Source: Pirellulales bacterium (lineage in GTDB: Bacteria > Planctomycetota > Planctomycetia > Pirellulales > Thermoguttaceae). Taken from it: a stretch of 64,000 bases of DNA. A program made the translations under genes and the position numbers. Under the pieces are notes generated by a model that made no database searches, was not told where the DNA came from, and saw only the letters and a program-made list of their open reading frames with translations. How positions within the stretch are numbered: position 1 is the stretch's first letter; each line of letters begins with the position of its first letter. The stretch is from the NCBI GenBank assembly GCA_016935315.1, contig JAFGRD010000039.1, forward strand, positions 1 through 64,000, read 5' to 3'. This document shows, piece after piece, positions 14,167 to 63,089 of this stretch.

Positions 14167-15083
14167 CAGGCATCCTCGCATCGGACCGGAGCGGCATTTG
14201 AGTTGCGACGTTTGGTGAGCGTGACCGAGTTGCCCACGTCGTTGTACACGACTTCGTCCATGAAGGTACGCATTAGCAGCACGCCCCGGCCGCTGACTCG
14301 CTCCAGATTGTTCGGATCGGTGGGGTCGGGCAAGGTCGAGGGGTCGAAGCCGGACCCTTCGTCGCGGACGACCACGCGGGCCTGGTCGCGGGATAGCGCC
14401 GCTTCGACGTAGATCCGACGGTCGCGATAAGGCGTCTCGCAGCGGCGCTGCCGGACCAGCGCCCCGTACGCTTCGTCGTCCCGCTCGCGAAGCTCCGAAG
14501 CGACTTCCAGGTTGCCGTGGTACAGGGCGTTGACCAGCGACTCCTCCAGCGCCACGCCGATCCGCGTACACTCCGTCTCGTCGCAAAGTCCCAACTGGGT
14601 GACCTCTTCCTGCAAGTAGGTCACTAAGGGGCCAAAAAGGCTGCTGTCGTTGTCCAGTGTGAAGGCGCTGTTGCTGTACGTCATGCACTCCATCAGCCGC
14701 GACTGGCTCCGCCGATGCGACGAGACGGCCAACACGCGTCGCACGGTGTCCAGCAGATTGGCCCCCAGCGCCCGCTTCGAAACGTAGCTGGCCGCACCTC
14801 GCTGGAGCGCCTCGACGGCGATTTCCTCGCTGCCGCGCGAGGTGATCAGGATGATGGGGACCAGCGGATGTTTGCCCCGCACGGCGGTAACCAGTTCCAG
14901 ACCATCGAGCTGCGGCATGACCAGATCGGTGACCACCAAGTCCGGTTCACGAAGCTCGATTTTGCCGAGTGCCTCGGCGCCGTCGGCGGCATATTCGATC
15001 GTCCAGTCGAGGTCCTCCTGCAACAGCCCGCCCACCAGGTGGCGATCGACCGTCGAATCGTCAACGACCAGGATGTTCGCCAT
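14166..15083 (-). CDS. Response regulator with RsbW-like HATPase output (second copy)
   Basis: 305 residues: a receiver domain (ILVVDDS; phospho-acceptor Asp in VVTDLVMPQLDG; Lys in YVSKRAL) joined to a C-terminal HATPase_c domain of the anti-sigma kinase type, with N-box EESLVNALYHGN, G1 DEGSGFD and G2 GRGVLLM. It is probably a phosphorylation-controlled kinase or binding partner for the adjacent STAS protein. It is a clear paralogue of the gene just upstream (same architecture, PYRDRRI and GRG motifs). ATG 15083 lies 23 nt inside the upstream gene, and its stop overlaps the STAS start. Both overlaps indicate one transcript. Whether it acts as a Ser/Thr kinase has not been shown; the ATP-binding motifs look intact. 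Confidence 0.9.
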   Translation of the reverse strand: MANILVVDDSTVDRHLVGGLLQEDLDWTIEYAADGAEALGKIELREPDLVVTDLVMPQLDGLELVTAVRGKHPLVPIILITSRGSEEIAVEALQRGAASYVSKRALGANLLDTVRRVLAVSSHRRSQSRLMECMTYSNSAFTLDNDSSLFGPLVTYLQEEVTQLGLCDETECTRIGVALEESLVNALYHGNLEVASELRERDDEAYGALVRQRRCETPYRDRRIYVEAALSRDQARVVVRDEGSGFDPSTLPDPTDPNNLERVSGRGVLLMRTFMDEVVYNDVGNSVTLTKRRNSNAAPVRCEDA

Positions 15084-15987
15084 CGTTGCTCTCGCGTCGC
15101 TTGACCATGGTGACTTCGTTGCCGGCGTCATTGAACGTTAGCTCGTCCATGAACATGCGCATCAGCGACAGCCCGCGCCCCTGTTCCGGTTGCAGTGCGC
15201 CCGCATCGCCCGGATCCGGCACCGTGCTCAGATCGAACCCCGGGCCTTCGTCGCGGATGACGAAGCGGGCCTCGTCCGGGGAGATCTTCACGTCCACGTG
15301 GATGCGCCGATCCCGATAGGGCGGCTGGGAGCGACGCTGCTCGACGAGGCTCTGGTCACTCTCCTCCAGCAACTCGTCTTCCGCTTCGCCGGGCGACCCC
15401 ATGCCGATTTCGAGGTTCCCGTGGAACAGCGCGTTGAGCAACGCCTCTTTCAGGGCCACCCCGATCTGTAGCCGACCGTTGAAGTCGCAAAGCTGCGTGC
15501 CGGCCACCATCTGCTGGATCTGGTCGACCAGCGGATCGACCAGCGCCGGCTCGTTTTCCAGCGTGAAGGTGAATTGGGCCTTGATGAGGCAGTTCATCAG
15601 TTGCTGATGACTGCGATCGGCCCGGGCCAGCCAGAAGACCTCTTCCACCGTGTTCGGCAGCCGCTCGGCCAGCCGCGATTTGGGGACGTAGCTGGCGGCG
15701 CCCCGCTCGAGGGCCTCGATGGCCAACGTTTCGCTGCCGTGGGCAGTCATCAGAATCACCGGCACGTCGGGATGGTGAATCCTGGCGGCCTTGACCAGTT
15801 CCAGCCCGTCCATCGCGGGCATGGTCAGGTCGGTGACAATCAGATCCGGCTCCAGGTCGGTCATCCGGGCCAAGGCCTCGACCCCGTTGGCGGCGTACTC
15901 GACGGTGCAGACAATCTTCTTTTCCAACAGTCCGCCCACGAGGCGACGATCGACGGCCGAGTCGTCTACGACGAGTATGGTCGGCAT
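15061..15987 (-). CDS. Response regulator with RsbW-like HATPase output (first copy)
   Basis: 308 residues, with receiver domain (ILVVDDS; Asp in IVTDLTMPAMDG; Lys in YVPKSRL) plus HATPase_c domain (N-box KEALLNALFHGN, G1 DEGPGFD, G2 GRGLSLM). Tandem paralogue of the next gene. The likely role is to receive phosphate from the upstream hybrid kinase's Hpt domain and switch binding or phosphorylation of the STAS protein, but this is inferred from architecture and gene order. ATG 15987 has AAGGAG upstream; the longer frame to 16026 lacks one. It lies 88 nt downstream of the hybrid kinase. Two divergent copies suggest that they integrate two inputs or form heterodimers. Confidence 0.9.
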   Translation of the reverse strand: MPTILVVDDSAVDRRLVGGLLEKKIVCTVEYAANGVEALARMTDLEPDLIVTDLTMPAMDGLELVKAARIHHPDVPVILMTAHGSETLAIEALERGAASYVPKSRLAERLPNTVEEVFWLARADRSHQQLMNCLIKAQFTFTLENEPALVDPLVDQIQQMVAGTQLCDFNGRLQIGVALKEALLNALFHGNLEIGMGSPGEAEDELLEESDQSLVEQRRSQPPYRDRRIHVDVKISPDEARFVIRDEGPGFDLSTVPDPGDAGALQPEQGRGLSLMRMFMDELTFNDAGNEVTMVKRRESNDGEHPGR

Positions 15988-29388: not shown

Positions 29389-29492
29389 TATGGACGCTGG
29401 CACACTCAATGCGCAAGGGCGACCACCGGGAGCCCGACTTGTCCGGCCTCCCGTTGGCAGGCCTGGATCATTCACAATGCAGACATCAATAG
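29389..29492 (-). repeat. 104-bp palindromic repeat, copy 1
   Basis: Ends are inverted (TATGGACGCTGGC at left; minus-strand start CTATTGATGTCTGC at right), and the two halves are imperfectly complementary along their whole length, with the apex pairing CCACCGGGAG against CTCCCGTTGG. It lies 17 nt upstream of the GH43 start and reads toward it on the minus strand. Same family as the copies near 45.7, 55.8, 58.0 and 59.8 kb. Confidence 0.88.
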
Positions 29493-45646: not shown

Positions 45647-45750
45647 TATTGACGCTTGCACACTCAATGCGCGAGGGCGACCAACGGGAGCCCGGTTTTT
45701 CCGGCCTCCCGTTGGACGGCTTGGATCATTCATGATGCAAACATCAGCAG
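45647..45750 (-). repeat. 104-bp palindromic repeat, copy 2
   Basis: Ends TATTGACGCTTGC and (minus strand) CTGCTGATGTTTGC. The apex hairpin is clear: CCAACGGGAG (45681-45690) pairs with CTCCCGTTGG (45706-45715), with an inner CCGG/CCGG stem and a TTTTT loop. It reads toward the PMT-like gene, whose start is 11-23 nt away. Confidence 0.9.
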
Positions 45751-55709: not shown

Positions 55710-57902
55710 CTACCGTATGTGATAGCTCAAGATGGCTTTCGAATCAACCCGTCCGGGCGTGCGCGCTATCGACGCCTGCACACTCCATGCGCGAGGGCGA
55801 CCAACGGGAACCCGACTTGTCCGGCCTTCCGTTGGTTGGCCTGGATCATTCACAATGCAAACATCACTAGAACGTCCACGCCGTGCACGCCGGAGTCCGG
55901 ACAGCAGCAACCCGCAAAATGCCAGGGATAGCATGCTCATCGTCGTCGGCTCGGGAAGGACGAGGCACCCGTGGTAGACGCCGGATTTATTATCGACCGT
56001 ATAGGCAAACCGCAAGTCCTCAAGCAAGTCCGTTCCAACGAGGCCGTCGCCGATCACGTCGCCCAGCCAATGGTTGCCCACAAGCGTGAAGAGAAGATTG
56101 CCGCTGATTCGATCGTCCTGATCCTCCTGGAATAGTCCCAGGTTTTCCGCGGCTTCGCCGGTGAAGACACCATCTCGCGACTCCAGCACATACCCGTTGA
56201 TCAAGACATCGCGTGTCTCAATCGTGAGACCGCCCGGCCTGACGACCAGCCGCACCGTACCGCCCGTCTCTTCGTTTCGGATCACTTGGGCATAGGATCC
56301 GGTCCCGAATAGGTTGGCTGCCAGGACGGCCTGGATGTCGATGCCGTTGACCACTGCATCGCCGGTAAAATCACCCTCGGTCCAGTCGGCCGGGATGCCG
56401 GTGCCGAACTTGCCGGCCGCCAGTATCGCCTGGATGTCGAGGCCGTTGACTTGCCGATCCCCATTCGCATCTCCGTCGGCGGCCTGGAACAAAGACACGC
56501 TCACGGCGTCCTCGGTGTACGCGACACCCCGGTGAAAGACGCCCGAGCCAAGGTGCTCGCCCAGGTCCGGTTGTTGGTCGAAGACTCCGCGAACGGCCCC
56601 GCTGCTGAGCACGATACGCTCCGCGTCACCAACGCACGGTAGTCTGCCAATGGCCCCCAGCCTCAGCTTTGAGCCCGGCAAGATCTCGATCTCGCCGCCG
56701 GCCGCAAGCAAGCCGTTTCGAGGACCACCGACTTCGCAAGTATACTGCGCGTCATCCAGCCTCAGCGTGTCGTCAATACTTAGTCTTCCATGGGGCGCGA
56801 CCCTCAGCACTGCGGCATGCAAGTCTGCCGTTTCTGCGATCAGAGTGCCGCCGATTTGCAGTGTGCCGTCAGTTGCCTCGACATCGGCAAAGACCTCCAG
56901 CGTCGCCGCGTCGACGACCACGACTTGCCCGCCGCTGCGAACCTCCAGCGAGTAGGCCCCTGAGTTGCCCGACACGGTAACTGTCTTGCTCGGCACGACT
57001 GCGCCAGTGGCAATGTTGGGCACGCCATTGGCGGGGGCGCCGTGCCAGCGCCCGGCCGCGTTCCAGTCGCCGTCGCTCAGGCCGTCCCAAGTCAAGACCG
57101 GCTCGGGCAGTACGATCAGCGGCTCGTCGGCCATGGCCGCGGCGATCTGCTCGACATAATGCGGCACGAACGTATCCGCGGATCCGACGGCACCGGGGCT
57201 GTCGGCGTCCTCCCAGATATACCAGTGGATTCCGACCAGCGCCGGCATGCCGTCGTAGATCGCAAGGCTCGGCCCGCCTGAATCGCCCGATTGGAGATAA
57301 GACTCGTCGGCACCGACGCCCCCAAGTTCGTCGAAGTCGAAATGATAGCTGACGCCCCGACTGCCAAAACTGTCGGTGACCGTCTCGTAGGTATTGGGAT
57401 CGATCGTATTGCGTCCCAGGCGAACGCTGGACCAAGAGGGGAGGGTGTCGGATCGCCCAAAGGTGTAGATCTCCAGGTGGTCATAGTCGGAATCGGCAGG
57501 CAGCGAGAGAATGGGATACGTGGCAACCTCACGACTGACCGGAGTCGTCAACTTCCCCAGCCACAAATCCGTCCCCGCGATCTGCGTCCCCGATTCGATG
57601 GCGTGAATCTCAACCGGCCCCTCCGGATCGTTCGTGCTGCAGAAATAGAGCGAGCCGCCGCTATCGTGATGGTGTGCGGCGCTGAGGAAGTAACGAGGCG
57701 AGATCATCGTAGCCCAACAGTAGCGACGCCCAACACCCGAGAGATCGTACGGATCGCCGAGGAAGTCCTTGTCTGGATCTGAAGGATCGAAGAACCGGTC
57801 GTGCCTCAGCGGCTCGTACGACTGAAGCTGCATCGCCGCCGAGACCGGGAGGCCCTGCACGAGAAGACAGGCCGAGACTGTGACCGGCAACCACTGGTGC
57901 AT
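55710..57902 (-). CDS. Trypsin-like protease with dockerin-like repeats and displaced PEP-CTERM
   Basis: About 730 residues. A signal peptide (about 1-23) precedes a trypsin-fold domain with a complete triad: His77 (LSAAHH), Asp112 (AGTDLWLG) and Ser208 (GDSGGPS). A beta-rich linker of about 230 residues follows, then a dockerin/EF-hand-like pair (DGDANGDRQVNGLDIQAIL and GDAVVNGIDIQAVL). Near the end is a PEP-CTERM sorting signal: PEPTTMSML, a hydrophobic stretch and RRARR. Unusually the frame does not stop there: it runs through copy 3 of the 104-bp repeat and adds about 50 unrelated residues, which should impair exosortase recognition. ATG 57902 begins the signal peptide; the frame is open to 58001. 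Copy 4 of the repeat and a good promoter lie just upstream. Confidence 0.88.
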   Translation of the reverse strand: MHQWLPVTVSACLLVQGLPVSAAMQLQSYEPLRHDRFFDPSDPDKDFLGDPYDLSGVGRRYCWATMISPRYFLSAAHHHDSGGSLYFCSTNDPEGPVEIHAIESGTQIAGTDLWLGKLTTPVSREVATYPILSLPADSDYDHLEIYTFGRSDTLPSWSSVRLGRNTIDPNTYETVTDSFGSRGVSYHFDFDELGGVGADESYLQSGDSGGPSLAIYDGMPALVGIHWYIWEDADSPGAVGSADTFVPHYVEQIAAAMADEPLIVLPEPVLTWDGLSDGDWNAAGRWHGAPANGVPNIATGAVVPSKTVTVSGNSGAYSLEVRSGGQVVVVDAATLEVFADVEATDGTLQIGGTLIAETADLHAAVLRVAPHGRLSIDDTLRLDDAQYTCEVGGPRNGLLAAGGEIEILPGSKLRLGAIGRLPCVGDAERIVLSSGAVRGVFDQQPDLGEHLGSGVFHRGVAYTEDAVSVSLFQAADGDANGDRQVNGLDIQAILAAGKFGTGIPADWTEGDFTGDAVVNGIDIQAVLAANLFGTGSYAQVIRNEETGGTVRLVVRPGGLTIETRDVLINGYVLESRDGVFTGEAAENLGLFQEDQDDRISGNLLFTLVGNHWLGDVIGDGLVGTDLLEDLRFAYTVDNKSGVYHGCLVLPEPTTMSMLSLAFCGLLLSGLRRARRGRSSDVCIVNDPGQPTEGRTSRVPVGRPRAWSVQASIARTPGRVDSKAILSYHIR
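55767..55870 (-). repeat. 104-bp palindromic repeat, copy 3 (inside the protease frame)
   Basis: Ends TATCGACGCCTGC and (minus strand) CTAGTGATGTTTGC; apex pairs CCAACGGGAA with TTCCGTTGG. It is translated as the C-terminal extension of the protease (starting SDVCIVNDPG) and lies 81-117 nt upstream of the next minus-strand gene, the RGP-like glycosyltransferase, in the same orientation. Confidence 0.9.
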
Positions 57903-58002: not shown

Positions 58003-58106
58003 TATTGACGTTTGCACAGTCGATGCGCGAGGGCGACCAACGGGAGCCCGGTTCTTCCGGCCTCCCGTTGGTCGGTCTTGATCACTCGCAACGCAGACAT
58101 CAATAA
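58003..58106 (-). repeat. 104-bp palindromic repeat, copy 4
   Basis: Ends TATTGACGTTTGC and (minus strand) TTATTGATGTCTGC; apex pairs CCAACGGGAG with CTCCCGTTGG. It lies 100 nt before the protease start in the same orientation. Its upstream edge falls about 6-7 nt after a TATATT -10 box, where transcription would be expected to begin. Confidence 0.9.
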
Positions 58107-59730: not shown

Positions 59731-59834
59731 TTGTTGATGTCTGCATCGCGAATGATCAAGGCCGACCCACGCGGGGCCGGAAGAATCGGCCTCCTGTTGG
59801 TGGCCCTCGCGCATGGACCGTGCGAACGTCAATA
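59731..59834 (+). repeat. 104-bp palindromic repeat, copy 5 (opposite strand)
   Basis: Plus-strand start TTGTTGATGTCTGC, end GTCAATA; inverted relative to copies 1-4 but again reading toward the next gene (radical SAM, start 64 nt away). The apex is more diverged (CCCACGCGGGGCCGG, loop, then TCGGCCTCCTGTTGG), with several mismatches, so it is the oldest-looking copy. Confidence 0.85.
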
Positions 59835-62291: not shown

Positions 62292-63089
62292 CTATCGCTT
62301 CCGCCAACGCCAGGTGCCCACAACCACCAACAGCGCTCCGAGAGCCGACAGCGAGACCAGCGTCGAAGGTTCGGGGACTGCTACCACGCTATCCAACTCG
62401 AAATCGACGTTGGGAGTGGGAGTTCCCGAGTTGTTGAACTCAAACGTCAGGCTTTCCACGCTGCCGAACACGTTGACCGGAAAGGCGGCAAAGGGTATGT
62501 CGTAAACGAAGGGGGTTCCCGATTCGGGGACCAGGAGGTTGACCGTCGTCGGAGTGCCGCCGGCGCCGACGGCTGTAACGGCCAGGCCCAAAGCAAGCGC
62601 GTTGCCTCCGTCGACACTGTTAAACGCCAGTTGGAGTCTGTCGTTGACGCCGCCATCGGTCAGGTCCACCGGTCCCAATCCCTTCGCGTCGACCAAGGCG
62701 CCGCTTGAATCCATATCAACGCCGTCATATTGGGCAGTCACGCGTGTTCCGGCGCGCCCATAGGTTCCCACCTCAAGCACTCCATTCCCATAGACAGGCT
62801 CGTAGCCAATGATACCGGCAGCGGAAATCGGCAAAGGCGTTCCCACGACCTGGACAAGGATATCGCGCTCTCCACCAAGAACGCCGACAACCGTATCCTT
62901 ATTGAGGAACGGGTTGCCGCTGCCCCAAGGTGCGAGCCCCGGAACGAAGAAGTTCGTTCCCGGGTTAGGGTTGTCGAACGAATCAATCACAATCGTGTTC
63001 GCGAGGGTCGCGGCAGGGTTGACCACCAACGCACATACGAAGAAAAGACCAATTGCCAACGAGAACAAAGCCTTAAGACGATGACACAT
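62292..63089 (-). CDS. Secreted PEP-CTERM protein
   Basis: 265 residues: a signal peptide (about 8-30), a beta-rich extracellular domain with an Asp/Gly-rich repeat-like core (DSFDNPNPGTNFFVPG, NSVDGGNALALG) and a canonical PEP-CTERM tail (VPEPSTLVSLSALG, hydrophobic stretch, WRWRKR), recognised by exosortase for surface anchoring. No enzymatic residue is seen; probably a surface or matrix protein. ATG 63089 has AAAGGAGG upstream, one of the best ribosome-binding sites in the window. A TTGACA-N18-TACAAT promoter lies about 120 nt upstream and an intrinsic terminator follows, so it is a single-gene unit. Confidence 0.9.
   Translation of the reverse strand: MCHRLKALFSLAIGLFFVCALVVNPAATLANTIVIDSFDNPNPGTNFFVPGLAPWGSGNPFLNKDTVVGVLGGERDILVQVVGTPLPISAAGIIGYEPVYGNGVLEVGTYGRAGTRVTAQYDGVDMDSSGALVDAKGLGPVDLTDGGVNDRLQLAFNSVDGGNALALGLAVTAVGAGGTPTTVNLLVPESGTPFVYDIPFAAFPVNVFGSVESLTFEFNNSGTPTPNVDFELDSVVAVPEPSTLVSLSALGALLVVVGTWRWRKR

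Follow-up and report, generated by a model that had tools for sequence, protein, structure and literature searches.

The window (the entire stretch of 64,000 nucleotides that was analyzed) contains five copies of a nearly palindromic repeat that is, with high probability, a non-autonomous MITE of the IS630/Tc1-mariner type, which would rebuild the stop codons of the genes in whose ends it lands and one copy of which would have lengthened the tail of a PEP-CTERM protein. Under this scheme, the element inserts at YTAR sites, duplicating the TA, such that its TTGA ends would convert an in-frame TAA or TAG stop into TAT-TGA, adding a tyrosine that is immediately followed by a new stop. The element ends, the flanking target bases, the phase of the stop codons and the short tail encoded by the reconstructed empty site can all be read from the DNA itself.

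The copies lie at positions 29389-29491, 45647-45749, 55767-55869 and 58003-58105 on the plus strand (copies 1 to 4, respectively) and at 59732-59834 on the minus strand (copy 5). An nhmmer search of 2,000,576 of the 7,102,429 bases of the genome, the window included, detected 129 copies, 116 of these with a score of 50 or more; because the repeat is a near-palindrome, the best strand was kept for each place. Given the five copies in the window and the 129 in the bases examined, the repeat is not a chance occurrence; by extrapolation, the entire genome would harbor about 450 copies. With the flanking TA dinucleotides, this high-copy element is 103 nt long, encodes no transposase, and is conserved at a median identity of 92% to the consensus among the 108 full copies. 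The ends of the element read TA-TTGA...TCAA-TA, and terminal inverted repeats are evident, with 86% of the cells paired in the outer helix (columns 1-14 with 93-106; 43 of the 86 eligible copies). In one case, two elements directly abut each other (L087, G000:C78:191091-191291). The window also contains a two-copy direct repeat of 147 nt (14313-14459 and 15202-15348; 70% identical).

The base preceding the element is Y in 105 and the following base is R in 104 of the 108 full copies; both are found in 101 copies, the other 7 having different flanks. Because these Y...R flanks surround a TA that is borne by the element ends, the target can be rebuilt as YTAR, and placing a single TA between the flanks yields CTAA in 34 copies, CTAG in 30, TTAG in 22 and TTAA in 15. 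IS630 itself reportedly prefers CTAG, as found by Tenzen and Ohtsubo in 1991. The TA is intact at both ends in 52 of the full copies, at one end in 43 and at neither end in 13 (at the 5' end in 73 and at the 3' end in 74), so that its duplication has to be discerned through sequence drift. Both the flanks and the stop codons of MreB and FliQ in related genomes, which align with the TA codon, point to insertion at TA and duplication of this dinucleotide. We infer that the TA is, most likely, a duplicated target rather than a part of the element. Insertion into TA accompanied by TA duplication is a hallmark of IS630/Tc1-mariner elements and, for the IS630 family, has been shown in vitro, in the case of ISY100 (PMC2170065).

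The relationship between the element and the stop codons is highly regular. Thirty gene frames enter a copy, and 27 of these stop at element base 6 (26 TGA and 1 TAA), compared to the one third that would be in this phase by chance (p = 1.7e-10); among the remaining frames, one stops at base 3, one at base 5, and the frame that enters copy 3 reads through. When the stop codons are rebuilt from the far flank (26 ends at full copies), TAG is recovered in 12 cases, TAA in 11, and TAC, which is not a stop, in 3. Thus, at the 27 gene ends, NNY-TA(G/A) is replaced by NNY-TAT-TGA, that is, one tyrosine is added and a new stop follows. The native proteins are predicted to end exactly one residue earlier, and this is the case for MreB in 11 of 13 relatives and for FliQ in 23 of 29; for Nth, the protein is exactly one residue shorter in 6 of 29 relatives, its end being too variable to tell (the relatives compared were 13 of 35 at E 1e-80 for MreB, 29 of the 30 matching for FliQ, and 29 of the 32 matching for Nth). 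In an NCBIfam scan of 20 stop-codon genes, four, namely those for MreB, FliQ, Nth and a D-xylonate dehydratase, match a profile to within about 10 residues of both ends, the other 16 yielding partial matches or none; the four proteins with such near end-to-end matches are therefore not truncated. Truncation of genes by the element was considered and rejected because the stop returns once the TA is treated as a duplicated target; if the flanks are joined without the TA, no stop is consistently near (median of 32 codons). Since the TTGA ends rebuild the stop as TAT-TGA, stop codons would be tolerated landing sites. This amounts to a checkable rule for the sites of mobile elements in compact genomes, whereby a TA-targeting transposon with TTGA ends would break a stop codon and rebuild it at once, and such elements could add a single tyrosine to many proteins unnoticed. 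In one locus (L140, G000:C112:19246-19348), the element is located between convergent genes, and its two ends supply both stop codons.

The distribution of the copies relative to genes is similarly skewed. Of the 116 copies that score 50 or more, copy 3 alone shares at least 10 nt with a predicted gene, and no overlap of this length is seen for the other 115, with gene ends taken from a home-made gene finder rather than from standard annotation; for comparison, 11% of 2000 random 103-mers from a 1.62 Mb subset are intergenic. Set against free YTAR sites, there is 1 insertion per 797 sites in coding sequences, 82 per 673 in intergenic regions and 25 per 133 in stop codons, so that coding sites are strongly depleted compared to intergenic ones (odds ratio 0.010, p = 9e-26), whereas stop codons and intergenic sites are used about equally often (odds ratio 1.54, p = 0.10). 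It follows that genes are either avoided or purged of the element whereas stop codons are not, a pattern that suggests selection against copies within genes. It is improbable that the copies are instead kept at gene ends by a function of the repeat, as a structured RNA or a terminator: 27 gene ends abut a copy, one copy folds into a strong hairpin as DNA (z = -6.3) and copy 3 into a weaker one as RNA (z = -2.6), but many copies adjoin gene starts, compensatory changes among 43 copies are not in excess of those in shuffles, and Rfam has no match to the window at its gathering cut-offs or to the surroundings of copy 3 at E values up to 5.

The gene that contains copy 3 is located on the minus strand at positions 55710-57902, with an ATG proposed at 57902 in an open frame that reaches 58001. 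This gene is bracketed by two MITE copies, copy 4 preceding the proposed start codon by about 100 nt. The predicted product starts with MHQWLPVTV, a signal-peptide-like sequence by eye, and contains SAAHH and GDSGGP motifs, also by eye, and a trypsin-like domain (about 57201-57725) that falls just under the Pfam cut-off (Trypsin, 19.2 bits against 20.6); on the strength of these motifs and the weak Pfam match, the protein is a putative protease. A dockerin type I-like region (about 56325-56474) also scores below the Pfam cut-off (20.2 bits against 22.9). The PEP-CTERM signal, LPEPTTMSMLSLAFCGLLLSGLRRARR (55878-55958, minus strand), consists of a PEP motif, a hydrophobic helix and a basic cluster. 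When the last 50 residues are searched alone, the signal is sub-threshold for PF07589 (19.1 bits against a cut-off of 20.7) and above the threshold for NCBIfam TIGR02595 (17.9 against 16), which the whole protein fails to reach (12.8); the gene is absent among the 70 PF07589 matches in the genome. Other proteins encoded in the same genome share homology with the C-terminal region: among 19 paralogous loci checked, the homology extends to the PEP-CTERM in 12, the other 7 aligning upstream only, and the assignment of the signal is supported by the fact that these 12 paralogues with a homologous C-terminus end in a like signal. The genome encodes exosortases, with four PF09721 matches at three places, and the product is a probable surface protein. 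Among 59 related genomes, 13 contain any match to this protein, the longest covering about 350 of its 675 residues; neither a full-length orthologue nor an empty-site orthologue at this locus was found in these genomes, and a search for loci related to this one retrieved a single partial match. A second PEP-CTERM-like end in the window, VPEPSTLVSLSALGALLVVVGTWRWRKR* (62298-62381, minus strand; 19.6 bits in Pfam, just below the cut-off), stops directly after the basic cluster and provides a nearby contrast.

The signal of the copy 3 gene is followed by a long tail. As the preliminary description maintained, the frame continues without a stop beyond the signal: there is none between 55878 and 55710, and 55 residues (55713-55877; GRSSDVCIVNDPGQ...SYHIR*) follow RRARR before a TAG stop at 55710-55712. 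The repeat was also placed correctly at about 8 nt further on, its gene-side edge being 8 nt past the RRARR codons. The claim of about 50 extra translated residues is likewise correct; the extension is made up of 3 residues up to the element edge, 34 read from the element and 18 from frame-shifted downstream sequence. The repeat indeed altered the protein end, as had been proposed: removal of the element together with one TA (the two copies of the duplicated target are at 55767-55768 and, on the gene side, at 55868-55869) yields a tail of 10 residues, GRSSAHARTG*, with its own stop, a TGA at 55744-55746 that would have terminated the gene before the insertion and is now out of frame. Copy 3, 103 nt long with both TAs, would have inserted into a CTAG that was out of stop phase and lay among the final ten codons of the PEP-CTERM gene, which now reads it in an open frame, the antisense '-1' frame. 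Because the element length is 3n+1, the old stop went out of frame, and the tail would have grown from 10 to 55 residues.

A tail of this length is exceptional. In the reconstructed empty site, the signal is near the extreme C-terminus, with 10 residues following, compared to 55 in the present gene. In 34 of the 37 other distinct PEP-CTERM loci of the genome, at most 10 residues follow the match, the three exceptions having 17-19, 24 and 47 residues. With the present gene, these make up 38 loci, namely 30 from the 70 PF07589 matches, the 12 paralogues and the gene itself, with 5 duplicates merged; the 7 paralogues that are short of the signal were left out, and two of the loci read, L030 and L039, are under the Pfam cut-off. 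All 12 comparable paralogues terminate soon after the basic cluster. In the PEP-CTERM family in general, Haft and colleagues reported fewer than 10 residues after the domain in 87% of the proteins, with a median of three (PMC1569441). Hence, the 10-residue tail of the empty site, as reconstructed from sequence, is within the norm of this genome and close to that of the family. We also entertained and rejected the idea that the 55-residue tail is typical of PEP-CTERM proteins, given the short tails of the other loci and of the 12 paralogues. Another PEP-CTERM protein of this genome (L071, G000:C105:37850 onward) carries a 47-residue tail; the DNA that encodes this tail contains a stretch of 24-26 nt that is not the present element and recurs at four further sites of the DNA searched.

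The 55-residue tail is polar and basic rather than hydrophobic, with a best 15-residue mean hydropathy of 0.14 and a charge of +5. By topology, such a tail would be expected to stay on the cytoplasmic side of the membrane, and cleavage at the PEP motif could still occur; the effect on exosortase processing may accordingly lie anywhere between none and full failure. We infer that the longer tail would impair or burden exosortase sorting. Copy 3 represents a counter-example to the tolerated landing in stop codons, in that a signal expected at the extreme C-terminus sits behind 55 residues, and the gene could serve as a natural test of the tail length that an exosortase substrate tolerates.

Two other explanations of the tail were weighed against its origin from a MITE insertion, and each has very little probability. 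An error of assembly or sequencing, with the true gene ending at the repeat edge and a one-base error in length producing the tail, would agree with the stop phase of 27 of the 30 frames that enter copies, from which only few frames, including that of copy 3, depart, and with the TAG TGA that stands in stop phase at the gene-side edge of copy 3; on the other side, no homopolymer is seen by eye at the junction, and an ordinary tail of 10 residues follows from an empty CTAG site and duplication of its TA, with no need for an error. Similarly doubtful is the retention of the extension as a useful new tail. The frame is still open even though copy 3 is about 9% off the consensus (rank 56 of the 108 full copies), but no stop interrupts the element frame read by the gene in 61 of 93 copies, so that its openness is no sign of selection, the comparable paralogues are uniformly short-tailed, and the few long-tailed PEP-CTERM proteins of the family are suspected, in the account of Haft and colleagues, to be non-functional (PMC1569441).

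A candidate for an autonomous element with ends like those of the MITE was detected in the same genome. This IS630-type element (L227, G000:C149, 958-2059) encodes a DDE_3 transposase (PF13358 match), apparently split over two overlapping frames, and has 23-nt inverted repeats, with the ends TTGACCTTCGCAGA and TTGACTCTCGCAGA; TTGAC follows the first base, and beyond the ends are TA on one side and GA on the other. By eye, the left end coincides with the majority bases of the MITE at 10 of 14 positions (11 with the C/T position counted), and the inner repeats of the two elements differ. On a profile of the MITE ends, the scores of the two ends are reached by 61 and 82 positions among 3.97 million, counting only positions that start with TTGA. 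No such ends were found at the other three PF13358 matches in the genome. The MITE would be moved by an IS630-type transposase. A reading of very low probability, a REP/REPIN element spread by a RAYT transposase, would fit the palindromic structure, the length of about 100 bp, the high copy number, the intergenic location and the single Y1_Tnp match in the genome but is disfavored by the TA-flanked Y...R target, the IS630-like ends, and the failure to find a linked RAYT: the copy nearest to the Y1_Tnp gene on its contig is about 14 kb away, and the gene itself is next to an edge of that contig. As for the GTAG or CGTC tag that marks the foot of REP hairpins, the MITE consensus by eye lacks GTAG and has GACG, which is CGTC reversed, at just one of its ends.

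When the other 40 genomes in the family sample were searched with a covariance model (E 0.001), weaker relatives of the MITE were detected in nine, and diverged families in three of these nine genomes keep TATTGA...TCAATA-like ends, so the MITE lineage is probably old. A more far-reaching possibility, which we advance tentatively and consider rather unlikely, is that the entire MITE lineage has adapted through its TTGA ends, which would make stop codons safe places to land in a genome densely packed with genes; such an adaptation would explain both the high copy number and the preservation of the TATTGA...TCAATA ends in the diverged relatives from other genera.

Several known repeats share features with this MITE. 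The mycobacterial MIRU repeats overlap stop codons and are tandem units of a different origin. To our knowledge, no TA duplication accompanies the GTAG REPs. Like the MITE, these REPs often provide flanking ORFs with a stop, in their case TAG, but they are linked to tyrosine transposases (PMC3733652). RUP of Streptococcus pneumoniae is a 107-bp MITE with a TA target and ends that resemble those of the resident IS630-Spn1 (PMC2229807, PMC3049150), and the relationship between the MITE and the IS630-like element described here resembles the pairing proposed for RUP and IS630-Spn1 (PMC2229807); unlike the MITE, RUP contains stop codons in each of the six frames, and landing in stop codons is not among the features described in that account (PMC2229807). 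The pneumococcal BOX element encodes the stop codon in 36 genes, without strong evidence of truncation, but is modular, its proposed kin is ISSpn2 rather than IS630, and the report on these genes describes no stop-codon mechanism (PMC3049150). MITEs that lie at the 3' ends of genes, where they remove the stop or add a tail, have been described for ERIC/RU-1 fused to ECA3499 (PMC2759123) and for QMITE2 in the Coxiella gene enhC, with 33 residues presumed in EnhC (PMC5896051); these are different elements, and the respective descriptions of the fusions mention no sorting signal (PMC2759123, PMC5896051). Thus, both MITE-made tails (ECA3499, EnhC) and stops supplied by repeats (BOX, GTAG REPs) are already in print, whereas the conversion of TAA or TAG to TAT-TGA by TTGA ends was not found in the open-licence literature on repeats, MITEs and stop codons. 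Possibly, another repeat-made fusion exists in the same genome: at the locus L148 (G000:C97, 2-2842, minus strand), a frame that by eye is DNA-methyltransferase-like runs through GCGGCTCGGGGACTGAAT-like tandem units into a Y1/HUH transposase domain and from there into a further array of repeats, which lies at the edge of the contig.
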